In this document: in pieces, positions 12,805 to 33,489 of the stretch | Layout: each line of letters starts with the position of its first letter | How positions within the stretch are numbered: the first letter of the stretch is position 1 | DNA from: an uncultured Neomegalonema sp. | Lineage (GTDB): Bacteria > Pseudomonadota > Alphaproteobacteria > Rhodobacterales > Rhodobacteraceae | Assembly: GCA_937958625.1 (NCBI GenBank) | Contig: CALGNO010000174.1 | Coordinates: forward strand, 1 to 61,640 | Direction: 5' to 3' | Length of the DNA: 61,640 nt | Program-made: the position numbers and the translations under genes | The notes under the pieces: model-generated | Databases searched by the model: none | What the model was told of the DNA's origin: nothing | The model's input: the letters and a program-made list of their open reading frames with translations, nothing else

Positions 12805-13311
12805 TCGAATTGTCTTCGAAGGGATGTAACCGACGCGTAAGCTGCGCGCCGTTGCAGTAATCGGCAGCCCGTTGGGCAGCGATTTTCCGAACCTCGCCCG
12901 CAGTTCGACAACGGTCGATCAGACACCTCCCACAAGGGAAATCCCGGACGAGTCGGACCCACGGGCCGTTGCTGTCACAGTGGAAAATGTAAAATGCCAG
13001 ATAGGTTTACTTTTTTGTATAGCAATTTCACTGATGAACCTACGATTTTCGGTTCGTATGTACGTTCGTCCTACATTTTTTGCCACATAAGCTTGCTTGG
13101 AAATCGGGCTTTGGGGATGCGACTGCCAGGCAACAACGAGGCGATGATCTTCGTGACGTACGTATAAGCACAAGCTTATTGAGAGGCAGTTATTGGATGG
13201 TCACATGCCGAATTTTCGCGTCTGCCGCTCAGGTCGAGAAGTGCCCTAATCAGCCTGTTGCGCCGCAGCGAAAAGCCCTAAAGACTTCACCTGAACAAGC
13301 GGAGCCTTGAG

Positions 13312-13917
13312 ATGCCTTGGATCATCAGACCGGGTGGTGACACCCCTTGGGGCGAAGAGCAAACCAAGCATCTGCCCACGCCGAAGTACGATGAGTGGCA
13401 GGCAAAGTTGGAGGCGTGGGAAGTGTCTGACGAGGGTATAGTAGGCGCCAGCGACATCTATCTCCGCGAGCTGAAGGAAGCCGCACCGATCAAGGACCGG
13501 GACCGGATGCCGAAGACCATCTTGTGGAAGAAGCGCGGCAAGCTGAAGGACTGCGTCGCGTTCTTTGAGCACTTTGTCCTGAGCCCCCGGGTTCAAGATT
13601 TAATTGAAGAATTGGAGCCAGGCGTCCAGGAATTTCTCGATGTCGATCTGGTAAACATTAAGACGAGCGAGTCTTGGCCGAAGTCCTATCGATTGCTGCA
13701 CGTCCGAAACGTGCTGACCGACGCCTTCGACGAAGCGCAGACGGACCCCGGTGACGGCAAGTTCGGCTTCAAACCGGACGCGATTGAAGGGCTGCACCTT
13801 TGGAAGCATCACCCATTCGGAAATACGTACTTCGCCTCCGACAGTTTCGTCACTGAATTGCAGGCCCGTGGAATAGAGGGCATCGGTGCCACTCCTGTGA
13901 AAGGACGCGGCGAATGA
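13312..13917 (+). CDS. Imm11/DUF1629-like immunity protein
   Basis: FVLSPRVQDLIEELEPGVQEFLDVDL...YRLLHVRN...NTYFASDSFVTELQARGIEGI resembles the Imm11 pattern; no adjacent toxin seen. Confidence 0.5.
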   Translation: MPWIIRPGGDTPWGEEQTKHLPTPKYDEWQAKLEAWEVSDEGIVGASDIYLRELKEAAPIKDRDRMPKTILWKKRGKLKDCVAFFEHFVLSPRVQDLIEELEPGVQEFLDVDLVNIKTSESWPKSYRLLHVRNVLTDAFDEAQTDPGDGKFGFKPDAIEGLHLWKHHPFGNTYFASDSFVTELQARGIEGIGATPVKGRGE

Positions 13918-14288
13918 CGACACGGGACGACGGCTCATGGCCCACTTGCAGTCTATCCAATCAGAGATAAGCGCTCGCCCGGCGGGTGCGGAACGCGCCC
14001 GCGTGGGGCGGGCGGGCGCGTGTCGGTGCTGCGCACCTCCCATTTCTCAAGAGGTTTTTCGCGTTCGTGCTTACTGCCGCTATGTGCAGCGCACACCCGA
14101 ATGGCAAGGTATGGCCAGACTCGGCTATCATCCGATGCGGAAGTTCACGGTGGTGACGAGGGTCAATCCTGTCATTGCATCAGTCGCATTTAATCTGAGT
14201 GAGGCCCCGGAAATTGCATGCACGTCGTCATGATTGCGAGCGGCACACTCAATGCCTGCAAGCGACTACAGTTTGTTCGGCTCAGGCG

Positions 14289-14507
14289 TCAACCCAGCCC
14301 GTAGTGTTCCAGAATCAGCGCTTCACACTCTTCACTTGTTATCTCCCCAGCGACCCATTTTGCTGCCAGGCCGCGCGCGAAGTCGCTCAGCTCCATTTCC
14401 TCAAGCCTCAGTGAATGCTCGCTTTGTTCAGTTATCCGCTGACGTCGCTCGCGCTCCGCATCGGTGATTGCGGGCCGGTTGGTCTGAGCTGTCGTCACGT
14501 CATGCAT
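14289..14507 (-). CDS. Antitoxin VbhA-like small protein
   Basis: C-terminus LEEMELSDFARGLAAKWVAGEITSEECEALILEHYGLG matches the VbhA antitoxin helix pattern (...G.it.ee.......yg). Confidence 0.45.
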   Translation of the reverse strand: MHDVTTAQTNRPAITDAERERRQRITEQSEHSLRLEEMELSDFARGLAAKWVAGEITSEECEALILEHYGLG

Positions 14508-14608
14508 CGCTGGCTTTCCCGCTGTCAGAACGACACTGATCGTAATGTATTTGGGCGAATTTAGCAGAATAATCAGCGCTTGTCGCACCATCGTGTCAAA
14601 CTCAGAAG

Positions 14609-15475
14609 ATGACTGAAATGGGCGCGATGGATAACGATATCTCGGAGAATACCCAACCGTCTGAAAGCTGGCGCATGACGATCAACAGAGATCACTTCAA
14701 GAAATCCTTCTCTTCCTTGCCCGGCTGGATTTGCTCAGAGTGCCAAACCGGCACGATGCGCGAAGTCGAGGGTCAGCGCCTCGTACATGAGCCTCCGTGG
14801 TCAAGAGACGCTCGGGATCACGAAGCATGGGACCCAGATTGGATTTCGGAAGATTTTGCTGTCATTTTAGAATGTCAAAATCCCGACTGCGCGAAAGGCT
14901 CGGTCGTTTCGGGAACTACAAGCCAGCAATATGTTCAACTAACGGCGACGGAATTAGATTACGAGCTTATGCTGCACCCCTCGAATTTCACGATAGCTCC
15001 GCTAATCTTCAAAGCCCCAAACGGAACTCCCGATACCGTGATCTATGAACTGGATCGCGCATTTCATCTGTTCTGGTCGGACACTACTGCGGCGGCAAAC
15101 AAGATCAGAAACGTCGTCGAGGCTGTGCTTACGCAGCAGAAGGTGAAGCGAACGACGCTCAGCAAAAAGAACAGAAGGGTTCGACTGAACACACATGGCC
15201 GGATCAAGGAGTACGAGGCCAAAAAACCGGAACAAGCTGAATTGCTGATGGGTCTGAAATGGGTCGGCAATGCCAACAGCCATGTCACAACAGAAGATGT
15301 CAGCCGCGACGAATTGCTGAATGTCTTCGAGCTATGCGAGCACGCGCTGGTGGAAATTTACAAGCCCCATGCCAAGCAAATGAAGGCACGAGCAGCCGCT
15401 TATACGAAGCGCAAGGGCAGACCGGCCCCCGCGAAGAAACGCAGACGCCGCCGCCCGCGCCACAAACTAACCTAG
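14609..15475 (+). CDS. DUF4145-like protein with highly basic C-terminal tail
   Basis: Half zinc ribbon WICSECQTGTM; C-terminal half resembling DUF4145; tail KRKGRPAPAKKRRRRRPRHKLT. Confidence 0.5.
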   Translation: MTEMGAMDNDISENTQPSESWRMTINRDHFKKSFSSLPGWICSECQTGTMREVEGQRLVHEPPWSRDARDHEAWDPDWISEDFAVILECQNPDCAKGSVVSGTTSQQYVQLTATELDYELMLHPSNFTIAPLIFKAPNGTPDTVIYELDRAFHLFWSDTTAAANKIRNVVEAVLTQQKVKRTTLSKKNRRVRLNTHGRIKEYEAKKPEQAELLMGLKWVGNANSHVTTEDVSRDELLNVFELCEHALVEIYKPHAKQMKARAAAYTKRKGRPAPAKKRRRRRPRHKLT

Positions 15476-15505
15476 GGAGACGTCTGCGATCCAACTTTCG
15501 TGTTG

Positions 15506-16087
15506 TCACACCGCCAGCGATTCCGGGTAATCGTCCTCGGTAGGTGGCTTCCACGGCCAGCTACCGATACGCCACAGATTGTCGATATTCCGAATATACG
15601 TATCGACCTTCTCGCTCTTATCGTTAATCAAGCCCGCAAAGTCGGTCTGGTGCGGAGAGCCGAGCGATTTGTCGAACATTCCGAACTCACATGCCCAAGA
15701 ATCCATAGAAATTTGATCGGCGCAGATTCTCCCGACCTTAGCCTTGTAGGTATCGAGGTCGCTATCGGTTCCCGTCCACCAGAACTTGGCGGCCAATATT
15801 ACGGTCAGACCGCCCTTTCGCTCGCCGATATATTGAACCGGGAAGAGCAAGCCCGCGAGATAAATACGCTCAATCGCCTCGATAACGCGGGTGTCGTGGT
15901 CTTCATCCCATATTACGCCGAAGTCATGCACAAGCGCGTGGTCCACGCGCCGCCCGACCACGTCGCGCCACTCCGGCACACGAAAAACCGAGTAGTGACA
16001 GCCCCGGCCAATCGTCCCCTTCTCTTCGGGTTCGTCATGGACGCAGTGAAGAAAATTTGAATACGCAGGTGTAGAGGTCATGTTCAA
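15506..16087 (-). CDS. Hypothetical protein (193 aa)
   Basis: Complete ORF in island; no recognised family. Confidence 0.5.
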   Translation of the reverse strand: MNMTSTPAYSNFLHCVHDEPEEKGTIGRGCHYSVFRVPEWRDVVGRRVDHALVHDFGVIWDEDHDTRVIEAIERIYLAGLLFPVQYIGERKGGLTVILAAKFWWTGTDSDLDTYKAKVGRICADQISMDSWACEFGMFDKSLGSPHQTDFAGLINDKSEKVDTYIRNIDNLWRIGSWPWKPPTEDDYPESLAV

Positions 16088-16283
16088 TGCCCTTTCAAGA
16101 ATTGTCGCGGATTCCTCCGCTGCACCCCGACTTTCGGTCGCGGCTCTGGTTGCTTTTTAATATAATTACTGTGACGACGACTTACAACCGGCTCACGAAA
16201 ATACCAATCCGCTATGCACCTACTTGACGTTCAGCCAGCCGCATCTTATTTTTCCGGAAAGTGAAATAATATCGGATCGTGAG

Positions 16284-16616
16284 ATGAAGTCGAACCTCAT
16301 CAGCCGGGACATGGAAGTGCTGGGAGCCGTGCGCCGCCTTCGTGGCACCGGATACGGCGTCAATCTTCGAAAGGAGATCGCCAAGGTAACGGGCCGAATG
16401 ATGTCCTACGCCACGCTCTATGATGTTCTCGAGCGGTTGGAAAAAGACGGGCTTATCGTTGGACGAATGGCGGAACCAACGCCTGCTCGCGCGGGTCGCC
16501 CAAAACAGCTCTTCACAGTGACCGGAGTAGGTGAAAAAGCATATAGCACCGCCCTCGCTACGATGCAGAGTTTCGCGCCGCAGGCGATCCCCGCAGGTGG
16601 AGGGAAGTTGGCATGA
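16284..16616 (+). CDS. PadR family transcriptional regulator
   Basis: DMEVLGAVRRLRGTGYGVNLRKEIAKVTGRMMSYATLYDVLERLEKDGLI, winged-helix PadR pattern. Confidence 0.7.
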   Translation: MKSNLISRDMEVLGAVRRLRGTGYGVNLRKEIAKVTGRMMSYATLYDVLERLEKDGLIVGRMAEPTPARAGRPKQLFTVTGVGEKAYSTALATMQSFAPQAIPAGGGKLA

Positions 16617-17167
16617 ATCCGCAACAGAAAATGCTCGTTCTAGCTCTCGCAATGTCGGGCTTATTCGGTGTCCTGTTCGTGCTGGCGGGCGTCTTTGACG
16701 CTTTTGAACTTCCTGCTATCGTTGGAACGATCTCGTCTTTCACTGCTTTTTCGGTCGCTGTCGTCGCGATCTATTGCGGCCACCGCAGCAGTGACGAGGT
16801 TGATAGCATGGTGATAAAGATGCGTGATGCTCTAATGGGCATCTTGAGACTCGGCTCCGCAACCTCGCTGTTAGACGACAGCGAAGCAGCTCTCAGCAAC
16901 ACCCCTTCAATGGGCCTCGGCTTGCTCCGCCTAGTGACGCGAGGCGATGTACGGAAAAAGCTCGAAGGCGATTTAGTCGAAGAATACAATGAAGACATCG
17001 CGCCGGAGCACTCTAAGCTCTACGCTCAGTGTTGGTTTCTCATGCACGTCTTGTTGATCGCCGTAAAGCGCTTCGCTAAGGCGCTTGGCGAGACTTCCGG
17101 CCTCGCGGCCCTATTCCGCGCGTCTTTCGGCAACGGAAAGCGAAACGGCGACGAACCCGACGATTAA
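16613..17167 (+). CDS. Membrane protein coupled to PadR regulator (permease-prefix-like C-terminus)
   Basis: Two N-terminal TM helices; KKLEGDLVEEYNEDIAPEHSKLYAQCWFLMHVLLIAVKRF resembles permease prefix domains that accompany PadR genes; overlaps the PadR stop codon. Confidence 0.5.
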   Translation: MNPQQKMLVLALAMSGLFGVLFVLAGVFDAFELPAIVGTISSFTAFSVAVVAIYCGHRSSDEVDSMVIKMRDALMGILRLGSATSLLDDSEAALSNTPSMGLGLLRLVTRGDVRKKLEGDLVEEYNEDIAPEHSKLYAQCWFLMHVLLIAVKRFAKALGETSGLAALFRASFGNGKRNGDEPDD

Positions 17168-17322
17168 GCCGCACCATCATGAGCAATCTCTTGTCCGATT
17201 GGGGGGGGGTGAGGCCAAAGCGGCGATATTTAGAGGACACTCCCTTTAGAGGATCGACGCCAAATGCCCCAGCATGAGAAACACCATTACGTTCTGGTAT
17301 GCGCCCCGTGCCGCCCTCGGGG

Positions 17323-18880
17323 TTAGGGAGAGTCCTCAGGTTGCAAAACTGATCGTTTTTGTGTTTGCGAGCGTGCCGGGCGTTTAGGTTGCTGAAGCAC
17401 TGAGCGTACTTCTTCAGAATCAACGACCAGGGCGGGAATGCCCAATTCGCCCGACATGCGTTTAACGATTCTCAGGGCACCTTGGTGAATCAAGCTCACG
17501 ATCTGAGGAACTTTACACCGAGCCTTCATGGCCGCCATCCTGATTGAACAATGGTCAGGTTCGATAGTCTCAACCACCGAGCTTGCCATTAGAAGAACGG
17601 CCAGGAGTCCTGTAATCTCCCTCTCGGAATACCGCAGATTGCTGTTCGGACAACCTTCCTTGGGGGGTTATGAGCCGTTCTCTCACAAGACCATGGAACA
17701 TCCTTTCCGTAACTCGCAGGATTTCTCTCGCACGGCACTCCAGAACAAGATTCTTGGCCTCGGATTTAATTCGCGGCAGATCGTGTGACGCGATGTAGCG
17801 AGGAAACTCGAGTTTCCCTGTTTCGGCATTCGTCGAGCCAAACTCCAACTCCCGAAGCGCAAGTTCGAAGATGTGAGGTTTCAAGCGCAAGTGACGGCCT
17901 GCCAAATCGCGCGGATACAAGAGGCGCTCCTTGCAGGTTCGGCCCAAAATTTCTCCACCCTTCTGAACCGGATAATTCTCGAAGACGTATCTACTCACAA
18001 TGTCCGCGACGGGCGCATAGGCAGGTTGACCACTGACCACGGTCAGCCATCTGTAAAATGGGCCAAGATCGGCACCGAAACTTGAACCTCCGTCCTCGTC
18101 TGCACGCCGGAAATTCTGCAAGGAGTCTATCAACCCGTTCGGTCCTTTGGTGAGGGCATCAAACCCGACTTCCCCGGCCTCCCAAAGCTGATGCTCCGAA
18201 CACTCGCTGACCTTTACCGCCTTACCGAACAGCAACAAGACGCCGAGCATTTCGCACGTGCGCGCCACGACATAGAGCGGTCGATGATCCAACCACCGAT
18301 ATTTGCGAACATTGTTCAACCGCCCGACTATGTACCGTTCGAGACGAGAGTTGGTTCTCGGTGCATTTGGTATGCCCTGACTCCGCACGAAGTCGATATG
18401 CCGATCAACGAGAACGCAGAAATCGTAACTGTCAGCGCTGTACTTTTCCCTTGGCAGCTCGACGAGTGGAATACCGTGATACTCGCAGTTTCGGATGGTG
18501 TTCAATTGCCAACTGGCTCTGCGCGCCGAGCCGTAGCGCCCCCGATCTCGTAGATCGCCCTCAATGCACTCTGGGCAGACACGAACCCGTGTGCGACATA
18601 GCAAGGCTCGGTTCACCTCTTGCGAGCGCACGAGATAGTTGCCTTGTTTCACAAGTTGGATGGAATTGGCCTGGAGGGTGTCGAGCGCCATTCCCGAAAA
18701 TCTAGCTAAGGCCGCAAGAGCATCAGACTTACCGTTGATGATGCCATTCCAATCGAGGCCAATGTCGCGGCAAAAATCGGTAACGCATGGCGAGCCGTTT
18801 TCCGCAGCCAAGCGTGACGTGAACGACGTCACGGTTTCGTCAGCTAGGATAGGGAGCGTGACGGGGAGAACCGGTGTCAT
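17323..18880 (-). pseudogene. tniQ: TniQ family transposition protein, probably frameshifted near 17664-17669
   Basis: 18880-17570 encodes MTPVLPVTLPILADETVTSFTSRLA...VCPECIEGDLRDRG...NCEYHGIPLVELP; the C-terminus continues in another frame as ...NSNLRYSEREITGLLAVLLMASSVVETIEPDH...VPQIVSLIHQGALRIVKRM...ALVVDSEEVRSVL. Confidence 0.75.
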
Positions 18881-18896
18881 GCAGCCCCCTGAGCGT

Positions 18897-19850
18897 CTAG
18901 GCTGCCGAACAACCGCTGTACGTCCAACCGGTCGTACCCATCAATGACAAAGGGATCATCCCATCGACGCAACCAATCCGCCGCCGAAAGAATGCAGCGA
19001 ATTCCTTCAGTCCTACAGACTCACATCCCGCGAAAAGCGCTTCTTCGATAGCGCCGATGATAACTTCGATGGTGAGACCAAACTCGCCTTTGCCCGCATG
19101 GATGAGCCGGTCAGCAAAGCTCTCAGATTTGATGTCGTCATCCGCTTCCAATGCTGCTTTTTCAAGATAGGCAAACAAAATTCCGGTGATCTCATCGCCG
19201 TCAAGAGCCATGGAGATCGGAGCAAACTTGACAGGAAAAATGCGCCTCGACAGTTGAGGATCGTAATTCAGTAAATCCCCGAGTGACGGCATTCCAGAGA
19301 GGATCAGACCAACAGGCCACTCCTTGTTCTGCATCAGCGATTTGAGGGTGTTCACGACTGCTGCTCTTTCGCGGTCGCTTTGGCTTAAGGCAAGGTCTTG
19401 TGCTTCATCTACGTGCAAGAAAAGAGTTTGCCTCTGCTTTAGATGATGCCTGACCATGTCCCAGATGATAGCTGCTGGTTTATCGCGGCGCAGCGGATAT
19501 CCAAGCGCGTTGAGCGCCGTCTGACCGACGTATTTTAGAGTGGCGGGCGATGGCACTTGGAAGCTGATAATCTCGGCGTATCGCAAGTCTTCCGGCGGTC
19601 GGAAAATTGCTGGATGCCTTGATATCATTCGATCAATAGCGGTCGTTTTGCCGCTTCCACTTGACCCGATGACCGCGATACCACGCGCCTCGACGGTCAT
19701 ATCGTTCTCGATCTCCGCACGCCGCCGCTGCAAGAGCCGACCGAACTGATCGCTCAACGACTCGAAACGATCATTGCTGATAAACATTGATCGGAGCGCG
19801 GCGATCTTTGCGCCAATTTCCGCTGCAACTTCCTCGCCCATATCAATCAT
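18897..19850 (-). CDS. tniB: TniB/TnsC-like AAA ATPase
   Basis: Walker A GSSGSGKTTAID; Walker B LFLHVDEAQDLA; position between TniQ and the transposase. Confidence 0.85.
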   Translation of the reverse strand: MIDMGEEVAAEIGAKIAALRSMFISNDRFESLSDQFGRLLQRRRAEIENDMTVEARGIAVIGSSGSGKTTAIDRMISRHPAIFRPPEDLRYAEIISFQVPSPATLKYVGQTALNALGYPLRRDKPAAIIWDMVRHHLKQRQTLFLHVDEAQDLALSQSDRERAAVVNTLKSLMQNKEWPVGLILSGMPSLGDLLNYDPQLSRRIFPVKFAPISMALDGDEITGILFAYLEKAALEADDDIKSESFADRLIHAGKGEFGLTIEVIIGAIEEALFAGCESVGLKEFAAFFRRRIGCVDGMIPLSLMGTTGWTYSGCSAA

Positions 19851-22014
19851 CCTCCAAGCGCCACCGAGGTGGTCGTGGAGGATGCAAGCGCTCCTCTTGG
19901 TCCGGAGATTGAAATCTGCCTTCGGTGTGGGCGCGTTGGTCGTCTGGCAGGCGATCGGGATCGATTACGTTCCCGAAGAGATCGGCATCGCCATCAGGTA
20001 TGACCGTTGCGCGATCCGGGACAATTGTAAGACCGAGAAACAAGCGATCATGCTCTCGTTCGAATTGCGCTTCGGTGATCGTGGGCGGCGACAGGTTTAA
20101 GCGTTCCATCGCTTCTCGGTTGATTTGGGATATGCCCTTGAACGCCGCTGCAATGGTCTTCTCATGCACAGCGGAGTCGCCCGCATGTTGCGTACGAATC
20201 TGGCGCGCAACATGTTTCCACTCAGCCAGTGACACGCCATCAAAGTTCGACTGCAGCGCTCTCGCGGGATGCCACATTCCGTTCAACCAGATAACGATCC
20301 ACCCCAAGTTTGACGTATCGGCACTGATTAATGCAGTCTTCTCGTGTCCGTGAAGATACTGCTGCCGAAGAGCATCGCAGGTATAACTGAGCCCGAAGGC
20401 CAGAACGCCTTTCCCAGAAATTCGCCGCGTCATCCTCCGACCGAAAATCGCGCGACGGGTTGTTCCGCATGGTCTGCTCCGAACACCATATTTATCGGCA
20501 AGCCGATTCCAGCAATTGGCGGGTGTCTCGCCCTTGAGCCCCGCATGACCTGAGTTGTGATAGACGTCGACCACATAGCGCACTAATACCTCCATGAGGC
20601 TGTCATCGGTGTGGCAGGCCAATTGCTCTGTCGGATAGTCACCCCGTTCTTCTGGATTGGAGAATGTCCTTCCTGAAAGGAGTGGCATCAATCGGGTGCC
20701 ATAGGTTTTGAACATCCGTTCAATGGTTCCCCTCAGTCTTGGAATTCCTCCAGGAGGTTGTTCAATCGTCCCCCCAAGATCGAGGACTGCGCTACGAAAC
20801 TCCTCCGAAACAAAAGCGCCGCCTAGGTCGGTGACAATTGCTCCGATACCGCCGTGCTGGCTCCATCGCCCTTCGCAACGAGCGGCAGCAGAGATTTTGC
20901 TTTTGTCGCTGACGATCTGCTCGAGGGTCTGGACGGCGTCAGCGGATGATGGGGCCTCGGCAAGGCGCATTGCCAGAATGCAGCGTGTGGCGCAGTCGAT
21001 TGCGGCGTATAACCACCGCCGCCCTTTCTCCAAGCTATCGAGCTGTTTTTTGTCCAATCCAGCCAGCGCGCCGCTGTTCAGCAGCAGCGTTTAGAGATCG
21101 ACCTGCCATTCATCGATTTCAACTCGCTCCATTGGGTGGAGCGCTTCGACACCCAACTCAAAGAGTGCAAACTTTCGGTTCGCGGCATCGGCACCATGCC
21201 TCTTGAGGTATACATTAAAAGGATCTAGCGCATTGATCCGCCGGATGATGGTTCTTTTCGACGGAACGATAAGGGGCTCATCCCCGCGTTCGACACGCCG
21301 CAAATTCTCTTCCCGAAAACGCGCTATGGTGTCGTTGCTTACCGCGATCCGTGTCAGGCGCTTAGGATCAGCGTAGCGATCGACACATATCGACAACAGC
21401 TCTTCGGTTGCGCTGTCGAAGCGGTCTGAGCGGTTCCCCTTCTGAAACGTCTTTGGCACCAAAGCGAGTGGCGAGAAACCGGCGCTCTCGTATCGCCGCA
21501 CCCAACTGAGCAGGCTGCAAGGACAAGGCGCTTTTCGGACAAAACGTTTCGTGCCAGCTCGCGATGTCTGTCCGATCGATTGGCACCCTGCATCGATCAG
21601 ATTAACGTCACGCTCGAGAGCTTCAATTCTTTCAGAGACACTCGTCTCCGTTCGTTTGACAAGTCCGCCCCGTTCGAGCGCCAGAAACGCATCGCAATAG
21701 GCCTGCTTCCATAAGACATCAGAGCGTATGTCGCCCGGAAGATCGGACAGCCGATCCACCTTGGCATATAATTGCATTTGCGCCCGATCTGGACTGAAGT
21801 ATCCGCGTTCTACTCGGAAATTTGGTGCTTCAAGGAAGTCAGCGATCTGATTGTGTCGATAGCTTGTGGATGCGCCGGGTCGCATCAACGGCTCCAGCAC
21901 GATGCCATCTTGCGATTGCCGGATCACGCGGTGGGGATCGCCATCTATCAGGATGCGATCATGCTCAGAGAACCGGATATGATCGGTCATGCCGATACCT
22001 CCACCGAGAGCCAC
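19843..22014 (-). pseudogene. tnsB: TnsB/TniA-like DDE transposase interrupted by in-frame TAA at 21091-21093
   Basis: N-part ends ...ALHPMERVEIDEWQVDL*; same frame continues TLLLNSGALAGLDKKQLDSLEKGRRWLYAAIDCATRCI...IVTDLGGAF...NSGHAGLKGETPANCWNRL. Confidence 0.85.
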
Positions 22015-22676
22015 GATTGGAATGTCAGTGCGAGAGGATCAAGTATTCCAAGGCCGCCTGAGTATATCGCGCGCACGACAGCCCGATACGCCCTACCACC
22101 GAACCCTGACATCTCAATGATGTCGGCTACTGTTGCGCCCTTGATTAGCGACGCAGCAATTCTTGCGACTTCCGCGTCTGCCTCACCATCTTGATCTCGA
22201 CGAAATTCGTGGAACCGGGCCGCGATCGCTGCTTTCCGTTTGTCGATCTGTCGGTCGGTTACGAGAACGACATCGTCGGCGAAGTCAGGTCTGACCGCTG
22301 ATCGAATCGACTGCAACTCTTCGAGAAATCGCCGTTTATGAACCAGCTTTTCCGGCTTGATCGCTGTGGCGATTCTTCGACCTGACTCAAACGTTACGAG
22401 GAAATCGAACGTATGAGTTCGACGACGCCCTCGCGCATCTCGATAGGCAATGGCAGGCGGCTGATCCCAGATGTCGTGAACGTCTCGTCGCGCGAGCGTA
22501 AGCAGCAAGAAGCGGTGCTCAAGTTTGCTTTCGAAGACGATACGTCTTGGACGATTGTCCGCTGGGAGCTGTGCAACAAGCTCTCCGCGAAGGCTCGCTC
22601 TGGATCGACGTGCGATCCGTCTGGTTGCTTTGCTCGGCGCAGGTGGCTCATAGGTTTTGAGTGCTTGTACCGTCAT
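21987..22676 (-). CDS. tnsA: TnsA-like endonuclease
   Basis: RRIVFESKLEHRFLLLTLARRDVHDIWDQPPAIAYRDARGRRRTHTFDFLVTFESGRRIATAIKPE, TnsA N-terminal nuclease pattern; overlaps the transposase start. Confidence 0.75.
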   Translation of the reverse strand: MTVQALKTYEPPAPSKATRRIARRSRASLRGELVAQLPADNRPRRIVFESKLEHRFLLLTLARRDVHDIWDQPPAIAYRDARGRRRTHTFDFLVTFESGRRIATAIKPEKLVHKRRFLEELQSIRSAVRPDFADDVVLVTDRQIDKRKAAIAARFHEFRRDQDGEADAEVARIAASLIKGATVADIIEMSGFGGRAYRAVVRAIYSGGLGILDPLALTFQSWLSVEVSA

Positions 22677-22868
22677 GTTGTTTCGAGACAGCCGTCCCCG
22701 TTCGCGATCCCGAGAACCACGCTACGAGGGAGGTGATGACCCGCCCTTCATCTGAAATTTGGATGATCGTGACCAACCCACCAACGCAGAGCGATTGCGT
22801 CGGCAGGTTGACTTTTCACGTCTGAAAAGAGATGAAGGGACGTCGCAGAGAATCGACGAGATTTCTTG

Positions 22869-22910
22869 AAAGGCCTTGAGAGTTAGCGCTCTTGAGGCCT
22901 TTTCTCTTTT
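22869..22910. terminator. Putative intrinsic terminator between the tnsA start and the Ner-like gene
   Basis: AAGGCCTTGAGAG-TTAGCG-CTCTTGAGGCCTT followed by TTCTCTTTT (plus strand). Confidence 0.6.
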
Positions 22911-22939
22911 CGAACTATTCTACTGGTTCATTGATCCCC

Positions 22940-23161
22940 CTATTCCGTTTTCAAATACCTGTCGGGCCAAAGTGCTTCGGGCGTTGTTCCCAGCTTCGAT
23001 GCGATGGCCGATTGGATGCGGTGAGATTTTCTGTAGCCTTGGCTGACGGTCGTTACCGTGCTCTGAGCCACCCCGAGGTCGCGGGCAACCTCGCTGAGCG
23101 ACGTGCCCGCCATTCTGAGTTGATATTTTATCGTCTCATGGAATGTGCCAGGCTGTTCCAC
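22940..23161 (-). CDS. Ner/Nlp-like helix-turn-helix regulator
   Basis: GTSLSEVARDLGVAQSTVTTVSQG...IQSAIASKLGTTPEALWPDRY resembles phage Mu Ner; GTG start. Confidence 0.7.
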   Translation of the reverse strand: MEQPGTFHETIKYQLRMAGTSLSEVARDLGVAQSTVTTVSQGYRKSHRIQSAIASKLGTTPEALWPDRYLKTE

Positions 23162-23261
23162 TAACGCTTCCTTAGTCTATGTTGCTCGACTATGGGGACA
23201 GAGTCAGTAATTGCGACATCTGTCAAATATAATTCTCATCGAGAGAATTAATGTATTGAAT

Positions 23262-23321
23262 AAAATCGTTCAATACTGACGAAAATCGGTCGGCACTGAA
23301 CAATATCGGTCAGTTGTTGTC
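23262..23321. repeat. Three imperfect 20-bp direct repeats (candidate TnsB-binding sites or Ner-type operators)
   Basis: AAAATCGTTCAATACTGACG / AAAATCGGTCGGCACTGAAC / AATATCGGTCAGTTGTTGTC at exact 20-bp spacing. Confidence 0.6.
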
Positions 23322-23442
23322 GATTTTCATGCTAACGAAAAATTTAGCGACTTCATTCACTCATCCATTTTTTCTCAAAAGCATAATACCTTCGATCTAA
23401 CGCTGGTGGAAAACACCGCTACCGACGATCCGCTGAGCGATG

Positions 23443-26400
23443 TCAATGTCTCTCATATCGGGTGATGACCTGATCGACATCGTAGATGTCGGCTGCGAGA
23501 AACCGGTCAAAGAGGTCGAGTGCATCCTGACGTTCAGGTGCGTCGTCGCCAAATCCCTCATACGCTCCCATGATCATCTTGCCCACGTTGGTCAGTGCTC
23601 CATGACCCATCTGCGTTCTGATGAACTCATCATCGTCCTCGCCAAAGGCGACAAGGCGCTTGGATGCTTCGAGTGCCAAGCGTGGGTGCTGGTCGGCAAG
23701 GTCGTCGAGTCGCATCGTCAAACGTTCCGAGCGCTGTAAGAATGCTTCGGAAGCAATGAACTGCTCGACTAAACGGAGCGGCTTCCCGCCCTCTTCCAGT
23801 ATCGCATGCCAGTCTAACCGGTATGCTTGGCGCTTTACGTCGGGATCGTCATCCGATGCAAATGTTTCGAGCCAGGTCATTGCCAACTCGGCTCCATGGA
23901 TGTCGTAGAGAAAATCCTTTGCAGCGAGAGCGGCAGCGCGTCGGGCGATTGCGGAGTCCGACATGTATGGCTCGTAATCGTTTAACGGCCGCTCGCCGAT
24001 AAGAACCTCACCTGACATCCAGAGTAAGGCCAAGGCTTCAAGGGCAGGATGTCCGTGTGAAAACATCGCAGTATAGAGAAACTCCAGGTGCTCCGATCGT
24101 TGGCATCGGGCCCAATTGTAGCCGCGTATTGCAGGCTGGGTCGCGACTATACGGAGATCGCGACGCGCTAGGCGGGCGAGCAGGATAAAGCCCCGTTCGC
24201 GTTCTTGAGTCGATATGGCAAGAATCGGCTCAACCAGCAGCGCCAGAACGTCCGAGTCAGCCTCTTCATCGACACGCTCGTCGACCAGATCGGCGAGTTC
24301 TTCGTATCGTAAACTTTTTTCCCACAGTGCCGCATTGACCGCCTTCAAGGCCGCGAGGCGACACCCTGCGCTGCCATAGGAATAAAAACCGCCACCACTG
24401 TGCCGATCGAAGATGGTTTCGACCGAGTAGGCACCCTGTAGCTCGTTCGGATCGTCATCGTCGCTGCGACCAAAACTTGGAGGTGGACCATTTTTGACAA
24501 GGTCGATGACTCTCAGGAAGACTCGGTCGTCGAGCAGGAGTGCGGGGCGTGAACTCACCAGATAGATGAACGCTCGTTCGCCATCATCGCTCGGAAATGT
24601 TCCCACGTATTGAAGAGCGCACAACAGGTCCTCGTCTGGTAAGTCCGAACCTCGCAGACCCTCAAGTATTTCTGCCGGGTAGACCGGATTGATATCGGAC
24701 GGTATCTGGTAAAGCAGAGCGGCAAATCGTTCTGGCTCTTGCTTCGTGCGCTCCCTCAGTACATGGGCGAGTTCACGAGCGCCACCCCGAACGTAGTCAT
24801 CCAAATATTCACGCGAGTCTTCCGAATCGTAGGACCGCATGGCTGATAGCCACGCGGCATCGTTCATTTTTTCGAGCGCATCCGACTTGATCGGTGAACC
24901 TACGGTTCCGCCCTTCGACGTTTCCTCCTTCGGCTCTGGTTCATTCACAAACTTCCGTTTCAGGACGTTGAGTTGCGCTTGGTAGCGGCTCGAAAACACT
25001 TTAAAGCCGATATGCTGTGCGATCGCCCACTGTTCGTATCCATTTCTCCTCAATTCATAAGTCAGCCAAGGGTCGTCTCTCACGATCTCGCGTAGCGCAC
25101 GTCCTTCAGCCTTACTCTCGCGCACGATTCTCGCGATACGCTCATGTTCGGGTCTGTAGGTGAAGACGCGATCCTCAAGTCGCTGCCAGTCCAAATCCCG
25201 CAGGAACGGTCGTACGGCCCGTGCCGCCTCCGCAGCCCCCTTCCAGCGCAGGGTGTATCCGCCCGCTTCAAACAAGTTGGGATGATCGATGACTTCGACG
25301 AAGAAGTCGGCACAAGCTTCTCCGCCTGACGCGATAGCCGCCAATCGATAGCGGAGCAGAACCGGATCGCAATCCGGTGCGATCAGGGAAGCGAATTTGC
25401 GCGCGACTTCTGGTGCATCGTTCGCAACGGCCTTCAAGCTGTCGGTGACGAGGCCTCCCCATGTTTCGCTGCGAATCGATACTTCCCACATGAGCTCTCC
25501 AGCATGACTCCATCCGTCACGGGGTCGGGCCAGCGCTTCGAGAAAGAGAGGGCCCACCTCGGTGAGAAACGCTCCTGGCGCTTTCTCCACCATCTCTTTC
25601 GCATGGTAATCGGGGCGTCGCCGTTCGCTTCCTTCCTTCAGAAAGGGCTGCTCAAGCGGATTTAGGACCATCCATCGCCTGTACCATGCTGCCATGATAC
25701 GGGCACCGACGCTGGCATGTTTACCGCTCCATCCGGCCCAGATTTTGTCGAATCGCTGATCCGTTTCGAAGGCCCTTGCGGGAAGCGTCGCGATGAGCTC
25801 GCACAGAAAGTCCGCGACAAGGTCCGCCTCCCTCTCAACCCGAAGAAAGCCTAAATTGTTCAGCACATTGACCGTTTCATCTGGACGATCGAGCAGGAAG
25901 CGTCGCAGTACATCGGTACAGGAACGCGGATCGTTCTCCATGCCGATCCGAAGCCGCGTCAAAGCACAATTCTTCCAAGGCTCATCCTGTCGAAGCCACT
26001 CATCGAGGATGCCCGACGAAATGAGGATACCGAGCCAGCCCTTTCCGAAGATCGCTTTGCGTGTGAGGCGATCAGGCTTGCCAGCTCCCGAGAGGGACAG
26101 CACTGCATCAAGTTCGAATCCCGTCGGTCCCGTCAGGTCTGAGAGCCAGCTCGCGACCGCATCCTTGATATGATAGCGAATATCGGGATTGGAGAGGATA
26201 GAGCGAAGGTCTCGCCGATAATCGGCTGGTGCCGAAAGCCGCATGTAGGCAAGAATTTGTCTAACTTGGGTTCTGCGAAACAGCTGCTGTTCGTCATCGG
26301 TTAGCCAGTCTTCCAGGCGTTTGCCCGTGGCGACGAAGTCGCGGGCGTAGATGACATCGAAGTAACTTTCGTGTTGGAATTGTATTTGTCCGTGGTCGAC

Positions 26401-27972
26401 GGTCACAAGTCCTGCCGATTGGAGACGATTTCGCCCGTTCCGGAATTCGTCGAGGACGGCGGATGGAGAGCTCAAGGTTTGATCGGCGCTCATGCGCGCA
26501 GCTACTTTGCCCAGAGCACTCCAGACCGACCAGCTTTCATCTTCCCCGACCTCCTTCTCCGCCAGATCAACGAGTTGCTCGATCAGATCATTGGATGTGG
26601 TAAAGGCCGGGGTATGCCCCGATGTGCCGACAAGGCGTACGAAGGCGGCGAGACAGGAGGGAAGACACAGGAGGTTGCGCTGTCTTTCCGTCAGCCCAGT
26701 CACCTCGATATCAGCTTTCCCAAGCGCGGGCTCGACATCGGCTTTCCAGTCCAACGAGGGCACCGTAATGGTCTTTGTCGTGTCGCTCTTCGCAAGCTGC
26801 TCGATGCGCGAATCATTGGTTAAATCGTAGTCACGACAGACGAGGACGACCTTCGCACCGCGCAGGCGTTCATTGGATTGGATCAACCGGAAAACCAATT
26901 CCTTAGCAGCCCGCCGCCGTCCCGAAGCATCGCTCACGGCGTCCAGCTGATCGACAATCAGCACAGGCTGTTTTGCGGAACCTGGGTTCGCCAGCACGCT
27001 GGTCGGATCGCTTTCGAGATCAAGGAGCTCTTCTCCAAGTTCGACGGGGCGGGAGAGGGAGAGGTACCGATCAAGCCGAAACGGTAGCACGGTCACGCCT
27101 CGTTTCCGGAGCCCTTTCGAGAGCTCCGCGACCACGAAACTCTTACCGGTACCGGCACCGCCAGAAAAGAAGAGGTGTCGCTCGGAACCGTTTTCATACC
27201 AGTCCAGCGCCACTTCGACGATCTCGGACCGGTCGATCACCACGTTGGGTCGCCGCGAAGCGTCCTGCTCCAAGAAGGAGTCTGCGGCGGCATCGATGCT
27301 CTGGCGGACCGTTGGATCGAGGGCATTTGCTCGGGGCATCAGGCCGTAGCCGGGGAGCGCGCTCCGCATTTCCTCCGTCGTCGTCCTACGCGTCAGCCGA
27401 TCCCTTGAATAGCGCTGGAGCGCATCTCCCAAATCCGTTTGTCCGACGAAAAGTAGCGCTGCCATCTCGTTCAAAGCGCGCATGATGAAATCTGGAGAAA
27501 CCGTCTCGGTCCGGCATCGTTTGAGCCATTCACAGGCCCGCCACTCATCGATGTTCCAGAGCGCGACGAGGGTCTTAAAATCCGTCGAATCGTTCTTCGA
27601 AAGGGCATCACGGAAATCACCGATACTATCGGTGAGCCGAGCCTTGTTGCCGAGCGTCCTGAATGCCTGCGCATCGGCATCACTTACGAAAACGCCATGG
27701 TTGTTCTCGTCGGGCAATTTCTTGGCGAAGGCTGAAAGAACACCTGCACTCTCAAGGCGGTTGATCGTCCACTGCCCGCCTGTGCCGCGCATCTTGCATT
27801 GGTGCCATTCGACTCGCTTACCGACTTCCAGAAAGAACTCGAAGCCTTGATCCGATATCGGCTCGCCTGTGATTGCTTGAGCGTTGGCGGTATAGACGGA
27901 TAGGAATTGTCGGGCGACCCAAAGATCTTCGTAATCGTTGCCGAGCTTATCGGCAATACCGCCTGGGATCAT
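23443..27972 (-). CDS. Large STAND-type NTPase with N-terminal PD-(D/E)XK/Cap4-like nuclease domain; candidate anti-phage protein (1509 aa)
   Basis: N-term GGIADKLGNDYEDLWVARQFL...EFFLEVGKRVEWHQCKM; P-loop FFSGGAGTGKSFVVAEL; Walker B VLIVDQLDAVSD; long helical C-terminus. Confidence 0.65.
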   Translation of the reverse strand: MIPGGIADKLGNDYEDLWVARQFLSVYTANAQAITGEPISDQGFEFFLEVGKRVEWHQCKMRGTGGQWTINRLESAGVLSAFAKKLPDENNHGVFVSDADAQAFRTLGNKARLTDSIGDFRDALSKNDSTDFKTLVALWNIDEWRACEWLKRCRTETVSPDFIMRALNEMAALLFVGQTDLGDALQRYSRDRLTRRTTTEEMRSALPGYGLMPRANALDPTVRQSIDAAADSFLEQDASRRPNVVIDRSEIVEVALDWYENGSERHLFFSGGAGTGKSFVVAELSKGLRKRGVTVLPFRLDRYLSLSRPVELGEELLDLESDPTSVLANPGSAKQPVLIVDQLDAVSDASGRRRAAKELVFRLIQSNERLRGAKVVLVCRDYDLTNDSRIEQLAKSDTTKTITVPSLDWKADVEPALGKADIEVTGLTERQRNLLCLPSCLAAFVRLVGTSGHTPAFTTSNDLIEQLVDLAEKEVGEDESWSVWSALGKVAARMSADQTLSSPSAVLDEFRNGRNRLQSAGLVTVDHGQIQFQHESYFDVIYARDFVATGKRLEDWLTDDEQQLFRRTQVRQILAYMRLSAPADYRRDLRSILSNPDIRYHIKDAVASWLSDLTGPTGFELDAVLSLSGAGKPDRLTRKAIFGKGWLGILISSGILDEWLRQDEPWKNCALTRLRIGMENDPRSCTDVLRRFLLDRPDETVNVLNNLGFLRVEREADLVADFLCELIATLPARAFETDQRFDKIWAGWSGKHASVGARIMAAWYRRWMVLNPLEQPFLKEGSERRRPDYHAKEMVEKAPGAFLTEVGPLFLEALARPRDGWSHAGELMWEVSIRSETWGGLVTDSLKAVANDAPEVARKFASLIAPDCDPVLLRYRLAAIASGGEACADFFVEVIDHPNLFEAGGYTLRWKGAAEAARAVRPFLRDLDWQRLEDRVFTYRPEHERIARIVRESKAEGRALREIVRDDPWLTYELRRNGYEQWAIAQHIGFKVFSSRYQAQLNVLKRKFVNEPEPKEETSKGGTVGSPIKSDALEKMNDAAWLSAMRSYDSEDSREYLDDYVRGGARELAHVLRERTKQEPERFAALLYQIPSDINPVYPAEILEGLRGSDLPDEDLLCALQYVGTFPSDDGERAFIYLVSSRPALLLDDRVFLRVIDLVKNGPPPSFGRSDDDDPNELQGAYSVETIFDRHSGGGFYSYGSAGCRLAALKAVNAALWEKSLRYEELADLVDERVDEEADSDVLALLVEPILAISTQERERGFILLARLARRDLRIVATQPAIRGYNWARCQRSEHLEFLYTAMFSHGHPALEALALLWMSGEVLIGERPLNDYEPYMSDSAIARRAAALAAKDFLYDIHGAELAMTWLETFASDDDPDVKRQAYRLDWHAILEEGGKPLRLVEQFIASEAFLQRSERLTMRLDDLADQHPRLALEASKRLVAFGEDDDEFIRTQMGHGALTNVGKMIMGAYEGFGDDAPERQDALDLFDRFLAADIYDVDQVITRYERH

Positions 27973-28388
27973 TAGTTGCTTCCTGTCAATGCGCTGAGGC
28001 TCAAGGAGTTGCGGTCAATTGCTACAATCTGCTCCACTCCAAAGTTATGCAATCCACTGAACCCGTCTTCCGACGTTTAAACCCTTCTTGTGAGGTTTCG
28101 GAGGCCTCGAATTTAGCTGCTTTCAGTCGCAATCATCCCAGCCCGCTTCTCGGTTCAGAGAGCCATAGTTTGAATTTTGGGCAGCTGTCGCCGTCAGTAC
28201 AATCGAATTTGCTGAGGCATTCGACCGTGTGAGATCGACGTTCCACTCCAAAGCTAGAACGCGTTGCACATCCATTCGCGTGGCCCGTCACAATATGTCC
28301 CGCTTTCAATAACGAATGTCTGCCGAACGCTAAAAAGGAAAGGGATTGGCAAAAAAAGGAAACCCTTCTGGCATTTCACAGAAAAAGA

Positions 28389-28464
28389 TGGCTGGGGCGG
28401 CAGGATTCGAACCTGCGCTCTTCGGTACCAAAAACCGCTGCTTTACCAGCTAAGCTACGCCCCA
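28389..28464 (-). tRNA. tRNA-Gln (anticodon UUG)
   Basis: TGGGGCGTAGCTTAGCTGGTAAAGCAGCGGTTTTTGGTACCGAAGAGCGCAGGTTCGAATCCTGCCGCCCCAGCCA folds as a cloverleaf; CCA encoded. Confidence 0.93.
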
Positions 28465-30548: not shown

Positions 30549-31766
30549 ATGCGCCGCGTCGTTGTCACCGGGATCGGTATCGTCTCCTCCATCGGCTCCG
30601 ATGCCGAAACCGTCACTGCCTCGCTGAAAAACGCGACCTCGGGCATCACCCATTCCGAAGAGCAGACCGAGCATGGCTTTCGCAGCCGGGTGGCCGGTCG
30701 GCCCGTGGTGGACATCGACGCCCATGTGCCGAAACGCGCGCGGCGGTTCATGGGGGATGGCGCGGCTTGGAACTACATCGCGATGCAGCAGGCGATTGAC
30801 GATTCCGGCCTTGGCGAAGACGAGGTCAGCCATGTGCGCACGGGCCTTGTCATGGGCTCCGGCGGTCCTTCTACCGTAGACCAAGTGCGCGCCGCCGACA
30901 TTGTCCGCGAAAAGGGCGCGCCGAAGCGGATCGGGCCATTCGCTGTGCCGCGCTGTATGTCGTCGACCAACTCGGCCACGCTGGCCACGCCGTTCAAGAT
31001 CAAGGGCGTGAACTATTCGATCTCCTCGGCCTGTTCGACCTCGGCCCATTGCATCGGCCACGGGGCAGAGCTGATCCAGTTCGGCAAGCAGGACATCGTC
31101 TTTGCCGGGGGCGGTGAAGACCTGCACTGGTCGCTGACCTGTCTGTTCGATGCCATGGCGGCGCTGTCCTCGAACTTCAACGATACCCCCGCCGCGGCCA
31201 GCCGCGCCTATGACGAAAACCGCGACGGGTTCGTCATCGGCGGCGGGGCCGGAACCGTGGTTCTGGAGGAATACGAGCGCGCGAAAGCACGCGGCGCGAC
31301 GATCTATGGCGAGTTGATCGGATACGGCGCGAACTCGGACGGGTTCGACATGGTGGCCCCGTCCGGCGAGGGCGCGGTGCGCTGTATGGAACTGGCCATG
31401 AGCACCATCGGCGACCGCAAGGTCAGCTATATCAACACCCACGGCACCTCCACCCCCGTGGGCGACGAGCGCGAAATGCAGGCCATGCGCGACACGTTCG
31501 GCGCGGGCAATATCCCCGACCTCAGCTCGACCAAGTCACTCACCGGACATTCGCTCGGCGCAACGGGCGTGCAGGAGGCGATTTATTGCCTGCTGATGAT
31601 GAAGCACGGCTTCAAGACGAAATCCGCCCATATCGAAACCCTCGACCCGGCCTTCGCCGACATCCCGATCCTGCGCGAGCGCAAGGATGAAGACGTCGAC
31701 GTCACCATGAGCAACAGCTTCGGCTTCGGCGGCACCAACGCGACGCTGGTATTCGGGAAGGTTTGA
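30549..31766 (+). CDS. fabB: Beta-ketoacyl-ACP synthase I FabB
   Basis: [47 protein letters not shown]. Confidence 0.95.
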
Positions 31767-31779
31767 GGAGATACGCGAT

Positions 31780-32691
31780 TTGAAAAAATACTCCAGAACC
31801 AGCCAGTCTGTTATGTCGTCATGCCATAGATTCGAAACGAATACCTTTAACGAAGCCGACGTCCGCTCTATCATAATCGAGCAGCGCGAAATTTCCGGTT
31901 ATTTAATACGTGAAGTCGGAGATTTAATAGCCCACCCATCAAGAGACCGTGGCTTTTCTTATGATAAAGTATTTCAAATATTTTCTTCTATTCAATTTTT
32001 CAATACTTATAATGATAATGGAACTATAAAATCTCCGTCAATGTATGGCAAATGTGATTGGTGGCTCAAAGGTTATCTTTTAAAACAACTTGAGTTATCG
32101 AACCAAAAGCGTATAGTGAAGAAGCTAGGGATAAGCGTCAGAGAAATTAGAAGAAATTTAAAATCACTATTTCCAGAAGAAAATTTTCCGACAGAAGTTA
32201 CTCGCCCAATATCAATGAAAGATATGGCAATAATAAGTGAAATTTGCTCACATCTTTACACGCATAATATTTTTAAGATAGAAAACATAAGAAATGAGAT
32301 TAGGAAAATGCTCAAGGCGATTGGCCTTCCTATTGGTAAAAATTATATAGACGATTTTATCGTCTGTATATGTATTATATTAAATGGAACAGTATTCAAA
32401 TTGAAGAGAGAGAGCGTAGGCGATGCATCTATACATATAGAAAAAAACGAGTCTAGCGGCAATTCACCTCACGGTTTTTTTTCAGTATATGTCGCAGCAG
32501 ATACCCCGTCAGGTGGAAATAATGTTCGCTGGTCAATACCAATTTTGACAACAGACATTGCAACGAACGGCTATTTAGACAATAGCATGATTGAAATTGA
32601 TAGCTTTGGGGTTCAAAGATTTGATTTTTCTAGACAATTTGACTTCGTCAAATCACGGGATAGACCTATAGCTGCGGCGGCGTTGACTTGA
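31780..32691 (+). CDS. AT-rich orphan ORF (303 aa, TTG start) between fabB and fabI
   Basis: Complete ORF, 13 nt after fabB and 9 nt before fabI; strongly lower GC and AAA/ATA/TTT-rich codons compared with flanks. Confidence 0.65.
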   Translation: MKKYSRTSQSVMSSCHRFETNTFNEADVRSIIIEQREISGYLIREVGDLIAHPSRDRGFSYDKVFQIFSSIQFFNTYNDNGTIKSPSMYGKCDWWLKGYLLKQLELSNQKRIVKKLGISVREIRRNLKSLFPEENFPTEVTRPISMKDMAIISEICSHLYTHNIFKIENIRNEIRKMLKAIGLPIGKNYIDDFIVCICIILNGTVFKLKRESVGDASIHIEKNESSGNSPHGFFSVYVAADTPSGGNNVRWSIPILTTDIATNGYLDNSMIEIDSFGVQRFDFSRQFDFVKSRDRPIAAAALT

Positions 32692-32700
32692 GGGATTGAA

Positions 32701-33489
32701 ATGACCGGAATAATGCACGGCAAACGTGGGCTCGTTATGGGCGTCGCCAACGATCATTCCATCGCCTGGGGGATTGCGTCGATGTTGGCGGCCCATGGGG
32801 CCGAGATGGCGTTTACCTATCAGGGGGATGCGTTCGGAAAGCGTGTGCGGCCTCTGGCGGAGTCGGTCGGATCATCACTGGTTTTGCCTGCCGATGTGCA
32901 AGACCCCGAGAGCCTCGATAAGGTATTCGAGACGCTGGCGAGCGAATGGGGGCAGCTTGATTTTCTGGTCCACGCCATCGCCTATTCCAAGAAAGAGGAA
33001 CTCAAGGGCCGGTATTCCGATACCAGCCGCGAGAACTTTCTGAATACGATGGACATCTCCTGTTACTCGCTGACGGACCTGTCCCGGCGCGCGATGCCGT
33101 TGATGACCGAGGGCGGCTCGATCCTGACACTCACCTATCTCGGGGCCGAGCGGGTCTTGCCAAACTATAATGTCATGGGCGTGGCGAAGGCGGCGCTGGA
33201 GGCGAGCGTGCGCTATCTCGCCGCCGATCTCGGCAAGAACAATATCAGCGTCAATGCCGTCTCGCCGGGGCCAATGCGCACGCTGGCGGGGTCGGCGGTC
33301 GGGTCGGCGCGCAAGGTCTTCAAGTTCAACGCCGAGAATGCACCGCTGAAACGCACGGCGTCGCTGAAAGAGGTCGGCGGGGCCGCGCTTTACCTGCTGT
33401 CCGACCTTGGCGGCGGCACGACGGGCGAGACCATCTATGTCGATGGCGGCTATCATGCGATGGGTATGGTTGCGGAGGAAAACCTTTAA
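32701..33489 (+). CDS. fabI: Enoyl-ACP reductase FabI
   Basis: GKRGLVMGVANDHSIAWGIA; catalytic-region YNVMGVAKAALE; SPGPMRTLAGSAV. Confidence 0.93.
   Translation: MTGIMHGKRGLVMGVANDHSIAWGIASMLAAHGAEMAFTYQGDAFGKRVRPLAESVGSSLVLPADVQDPESLDKVFETLASEWGQLDFLVHAIAYSKKEELKGRYSDTSRENFLNTMDISCYSLTDLSRRAMPLMTEGGSILTLTYLGAERVLPNYNVMGVAKAALEASVRYLAADLGKNNISVNAVSPGPMRTLAGSAVGSARKVFKFNAENAPLKRTASLKEVGGAALYLLSDLGGGTTGETIYVDGGYHAMGMVAEENL

Follow-up and report, generated by a model that had tools for sequence, protein, structure and literature searches.

The window analysed here (a stretch of 61,640 nucleotides, contig CALGNO010000174.1 of assembly GCA_937958625.1, from an uncultured Neomegalonema sp.) encodes a 1509-residue protein that joins a predicted Cap4-type nuclease, a STAND NTPase and a HEAT-like solenoid. 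We consider it likely that this protein, part of the cargo of a transposon, acts on its own as an immune receptor inside the cell, in which trigger binding would lead to oligomerisation of the NTPase and to DNA cutting by the nuclease. On our best reading it belongs to an unnamed clade of STAND receptors whose front half resembles that of Avs3, whereas their sensor shows no detectable relationship to the sensor of either Avs2 or Avs3. The family is a variant within the known nuclease–STAND principle and introduces no new principle.

Domain architecture of the receptor candidate

A first-pass annotation, made from the letters and a list of open reading frames (ORFs), had described a 1509-residue ORF with the motifs VEWHQCK, GGAGTGKS and VLIVDQLD, followed by about 900 residues resembling helical repeats. 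The ORF is real and lies on the minus strand, a plus-strand reading of 23443–27972 being ruled out by its many stops. The gene is intact, with an ATG start and a plausible ribosome-binding site (AGGAAG) about 6 nucleotides upstream. All three motifs are present (VLIVDQLD at residues 337–344, the others as in Table 1), and the modelled structure of the 910 C-terminal residues is a solenoid made almost wholly of helices, with a mean predicted local distance difference test (pLDDT) score of 84.5. The domain parsing that the annotation had suggested, performed with AlphaFold2 and Foldseek, yielded a predicted nuclease and a HEAT-like solenoid.

The AlphaFold2 model of residues 1–262, built from an alignment of 22 sequences, has a mean pLDDT of 86.6. 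Its top Foldseek match is SeAvs3 (8dgc; E 3.7e-6, template modelling (TM) score 0.58), followed by Hachiman HamA, Lamassu LmuA and CBASS Cap4 and, more weakly, by HerA-DUF4297. The model proceeds from a helix (13–27) through strands 33–36, 45–50 and 53–60 and further helices to a strand at 91–97. The first helix contains E15, E45 opens the second strand, and Q58 and K60 close the third; this order of elements puts E15, E45 and Q58/K60 at PD-(D/E)xK positions. Across 28 family members, the window protein included (as in all conservation counts below), E37, E/D45 and K60 are each kept in 28 of 28 and Q58 in 26 of 28. The Pfam model Cap4_nuclease matches just 1 of 28 relatives. In modelled fold and in its E, D/E and QxK residues, the segment 1–165 is predicted to be a Cap4-type PD-(D/E)xK nuclease. 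The nucleases Cap4, LmuA, HamA and HerA-DUF4297 have this fold in common with the window protein but, unlike it, lack a STAND or solenoid in the same chain. They are activated by other partners or signals.

The central region is conserved at its functional motifs. Positions A273, G274, G276 and K277 of Walker A and D341, Q342, D344 and A345 of Walker B are kept in 28/28, and R380 and the winged-helix residues H534 and D539 vary little or not at all. As a single sequence, the window protein gives only below-cutoff Pfam matches (AAA_16, 2.9e-5); among relatives, nSTAND_NTPase5 is found in 16 of 28, and nSTAND1, NACHT and AAA_16 also match. With its P-loop, hhhhDxxD Walker B, winged helix and effector–NTPase–repeat architecture, the protein falls within the STAND NTPase superfamily, because the motifs are invariant in the 28 relatives, the NTPase is collinear with those of Avs2 and Avs3, and the solenoid is modelled. 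Foldseek matches of the solenoid model are CAND1, transportin-3 and importin-beta, and Pfam HEAT models also match relatives.

Avs1–4 respond to conserved phage proteins: once these are recognised, a nuclease becomes active, cleaves the DNA of both phage and host, and so kills the infected cell (PMC12931631). By analogy with these proteins, we propose that the solenoid senses, the NTPase oligomerises and the nuclease cuts. Specifically, the HEAT-like solenoid would bind a trigger made during infection by phage (or other foreign DNA), whereupon the STAND NTPase would take up ATP and oligomerise. Oligomerisation would gather the N-terminal Cap4-type nuclease domains, and the clustered heads would cut DNA, which would halt the phage and probably also the cell. 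The computation shows the domain arrangement and the conserved catalytic and Walker residues; oligomerisation with ATP, cutting of DNA, the kind of trigger and a role against phage are inferred.

Carriage by a Tn7-like transposon at a tRNA gene

The gene had initially been described as lying beside a mobile element and a tRNA. The element does adjoin a tRNA-Gln gene, but the STAND gene is inside the transposon rather than beside it, because the terminal repeats and a GAAAA target-site duplication enclose it (Table 1). The terminal inverted repeats are 29 nucleotides long and match at 25 of 29 bases, and the best-scoring pair in a repeat scan of the surrounding sequence coincides exactly with the GAAAA duplication. 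The transposon boundary lies 3 bp past the 3′ end of tRNA-Gln. With TnsA, TnsB, TnsC and TniQ, TGT...ACA ends, a 5-bp duplication and a fixed site, the element is Tn7-like. An in-frame TAA at 21091–21093 divides tnsB into two ORFs; this copy may therefore be immobile or decayed, or the stop may be a sequencing or assembly error.

Insertion of Tn7-like elements downstream of tRNAs has been published, as has their common richness in defence cargo (PMC8649781), and tRNA homing is described elsewhere as well (PMC10293859). An element so precisely bounded at tRNA-Gln illustrates one way in which receptors of this type can be mobilised. The tRNA-Gln gene is conserved in sister genomes, and the left flank is without a match in other genomes of the genus. 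When the 14 genomes of the genus were searched with the joined flanks, the tRNA was recovered but no empty site, and neither of the genes flanking the transposon was found near the sister tRNA-Gln within the short loci examined.

Carriage of this kind could also mean that the protein defends the transposon, or the host of the transposon, from rival mobile DNA such as plasmids or other transposons, and not from phage. The gene is Tn7-like cargo, and relatives occur on plasmids and beside integrases. Nothing specific speaks against this alternative, but antiphage defence genes are carried likewise (PMC8649781), and we regard it as unlikely. The two functions are not exclusive, and both can hold.

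Relationship to Avs proteins

The first-pass annotation had proposed an Avs-like sensor and had left open whether it belongs to a known Avs clade or a new one. The nuclease–STAND–sensor architecture and the top fold match to SeAvs3 bear out the resemblance, whereas PADLOC and profile comparison exclude Avs2 and Avs3 as profiled. Using hhalign, residues 4–543 are collinear with Avs3 16–608 (E 1.2e-9), and the nuclease alone aligns with E 1.2e-7, but the sensor half gives no alignment (E 0.08, probability <1%). In the same comparison with Avs2, which served as a control, the STAND NTPase and winged helix align (E 9e-9), whereas the nuclease (E 0.065) and the sensor half do not. No Avs model, including Avs3a and Avs2, matches the window protein in a PADLOC scan at E up to 1. 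We therefore reject Avs2 membership, for which there is no model match and only the NTPase region is alignable, and Avs3 membership, for which there is no Avs3a match and the sensor half does not align. Comparison with Avs1, Avs4 and Avs5 consists of the PADLOC scan; their names are absent from the matches of the window protein and 28 relatives, in a collection that includes an Avs4 model and in which Avs1 and Avs5 models are unconfirmed.

The front half is thus akin to Avs3, yet the protein is not Avs3, because the profiles align there and neither the sensor nor the Avs3a model does. Judged by profile alignment, the nuclease–NTPase half evidently descends in common with Avs3 (SeAvs3), with which it has the Cap4-type head and the nuclease–linker–STAND order in common. 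An NTPase tree that took in Avs2, and neither Avs3 nor Avs4, groups the window protein with 13 close relatives (support 99), apart from Avs2, which forms a separate clade (support 100).

A genuine Avs3 of 2034 residues is encoded in the same genome (contig C74:4678-10674; L086:1456-7557, minus), matching the Avs3a model with 1248.6 bits and SeAvs3 with E 1.4e-253. An Avs3b-like match adjoins it, whereas no such partner was noticed beside the window gene. One genome therefore holds two related nuclease–STAND receptors. The presence of a true Avs3 and a distant cousin suggests complementary rather than redundant sensing.

Could the window protein instead be a highly diverged Avs3 proper, sensing phage terminase as Avs3 does? 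The SeAvs3 fold match and the collinear profile match across nuclease and NTPase are what such a protein would show. However, the Avs models that miss the window protein include the one that scores the true Avs3 of this genome at 1248 bits, the protein falls about 500 residues short of the length of Avs3, and no alignment was obtained between the sensors. We judge this explanation quite improbable.

Relatives, exchange of effector heads and distribution

The receptor reading also finds support among the relatives. The same STAND core is found with other heads, namely a PNP phosphorylase (L003), SEFIR/TIR (L083) and a caspase (L084), which score 181–205 bits against the core profile, compared with 10–29 bits for Avs2. 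On this profile evidence, effector heads have evidently been exchanged on one STAND core, which is the modularity expected of immune receptors. PDB 9n00 scores 150 bits and falls in the same wider group. This distant relative, a 1523-residue ‘AAA family ATPase’ (9n00/9n01/9yix), is homologous to the window protein over both halves (profile E 9e-89, stretches 23–657 and 992–1515), and its nuclease region likewise contains QCK. It lies on another branch of the NTPase tree, grouped with a cyanobacterial caspase-headed protein (support 94). A literature search found no publication describing 9n00, and part of the novelty here may therefore already be known to its depositors.

Relatives were found at 31 loci in one genome scan, with others on plasmids. 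They span about ten phyla, by the host names given in the records: Pseudomonadota, Thermodesulfobacteriota, Myxococcota, Actinomycetota, Acidobacteriota, Verrucomicrobiota, Planctomycetota, Lentisphaerota, Aminicenantes and Chloroflexota, the last being the most distant. Over the full length, the window protein shares only about 18–31% identity with any relative, and it therefore represents a deep branch itself. The Avs sensors known so far detect a small number of conserved phage proteins; a related but distinct HEAT-sensor clade, present in about ten phyla, probably detects a different trigger. We tentatively put forward, as one possibility, that the unnamed clade consists of immune receptors built on one STAND and HEAT-solenoid core, whose head may be a Cap4 nuclease, a PNP, a SEFIR/TIR or a caspase domain, that the solenoid of the window protein senses a trigger unlike those of Avs1–5, and that the Cap4-headed form has spread partly by tRNA-targeting Tn7-like transposons.

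Occurrence is sparse. A search of 101 genomes around the window was positive in only 2, one being the genome of the window; the 13 other genomes of the genus gave no match. This patchiness makes a housekeeping or DNA-repair NTPase very improbable, and we reject that reading, to which weak generic AAA/PIF1/DnaI matches at the P-loop could point and against which the exchangeable effector heads and the mobile-element location also stand. We also reject a phage origin, as 50,697 phage records contain no match.

Several neighbours of relatives resemble defence or mobile genes. A type III restriction subunit lies about 40 bp upstream of the Rothia relative (L022), a serine resolvase is near the L014 relative, multiubiquitin/ThiF genes and a tyrosine recombinase adjoin the Sinorhizobium relative, and DUF262 and a helicase adjoin the Herpetosiphon relative; integrases and RhuM/PDC-S05 accompany others.

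Also consistent with an immune receptor is the scatter of relatives among many phyla, where hosts classified far apart can carry almost identical proteins. Other observations weigh against it. Nothing points to a phage protein as the trigger, and several relatives’ loci sit amid ordinary metabolic genes. The defence-like neighbours are suggestive only, because their tally is without a background rate. Fold matches of the solenoid are low (TM 0.13–0.28 in Foldseek), amounting to mere solenoid resemblance, and the assignment therefore extends as far as a HEAT/ARM-like superhelix. Finally, the PADLOC candidate PDC-M54A gives an NTPase match in 20 of 28 relatives, and its match to the window protein is weak (34 bits), covering the P-loop region only (residues 266–395, against a model of 1621 positions).

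A further observation concerns the L009, L011 and L016 members, which are nearly identical although their contigs are classified as Desulfobacterales, Aminicenantes and a deltaproteobacterium. Either recent horizontal transfer or an error in binning metagenome-assembled genomes could account for this.

Table 1 Features of the transposon and its STAND gene (window positions)
Feature	Position	Strand	Basis
1509-residue Cap4-type nuclease / STAND NTPase / HEAT-like solenoid protein	23443..27972	-	ORF list, translation, models, conservation
Predicted PD-(D/E)xK nuclease domain, residues 1–165 (E15, E37, E45, Q58, K60)	27478..27972	-	AlphaFold2, Foldseek, conservation
VEWHQCK, residues 54–60, third strand with QxK motif	27793..27813	-	
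STAND NTPase and winged-helix region, residues 246–560	26293..27237	-	Pfam, relatives’ domains, tree
Walker A GGAGTGKS, residues 271–278	27139..27162	-	translation, conservation
Walker B VLIVDQLDA, residues 337–345, STAND-type hhhhDxxD	26938..26964	-	conservation
HEAT/ARM-like alpha-solenoid, presumed sensor, residues 600–1509	23446..26175	-	AlphaFold2 pLDDT 84.5, Foldseek
Tn7-like transposon carrying the STAND gene, 15,393 bp (15.4 kb)	12988..28380		terminal inverted repeats and GAAAA duplication
Left terminal inverted repeat, begins TGTAAAATGCCAG	12988..13016	+	
Right terminal inverted repeat	28352..28380	-	
Target-site duplication GAAAA, left	12983..12987		
Target-site duplication GAAAA, right	28381..28385		
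tRNA-Gln(TTG), attachment site, left intact	28389..28464	-	
tnsA	21987..22676	-	PF08722 1.3e-7
tnsB, broken by in-frame TAA	19843..22014	-	rve PF00665 4.7e-5, below cutoff
tnsC/tniB	18897..19850	-	PF05621 1e-19
tniQ/tnsD, 436 residues, likely target selector	17570..18880	-	PF06527 5.7e-16
Ner-like winged helix-turn-helix regulator between tnsA and STAND gene	22940..23161	-	PF13693 5.4e-13
Other cargo: Imm11-family protein	13312..13917	+	PF07791 1.7e-13
Other cargo: DUF4145 protein	14609..15475	+	PF13643 1.1e-13
Other cargo: PadR-family regulator, then ORF 16613–17167	16224..16616	+	PF03551 6.7e-11

Other genes of the transposon and its surroundings

The Ner-like gene is a possible regulator of tnsA or of the STAND gene. 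The Imm11-family cargo is an immunity-type protein; no toxin gene was identified alongside it.

Outside the transposon, a 303-residue ORF (31780–32691, plus strand) of low GC content (about 42%) and without a Pfam match sits between fabB-like (30549–31766) and fabI-like (32701–33489) ORFs, and resembles foreign DNA inserted into a cluster of fatty-acid genes.

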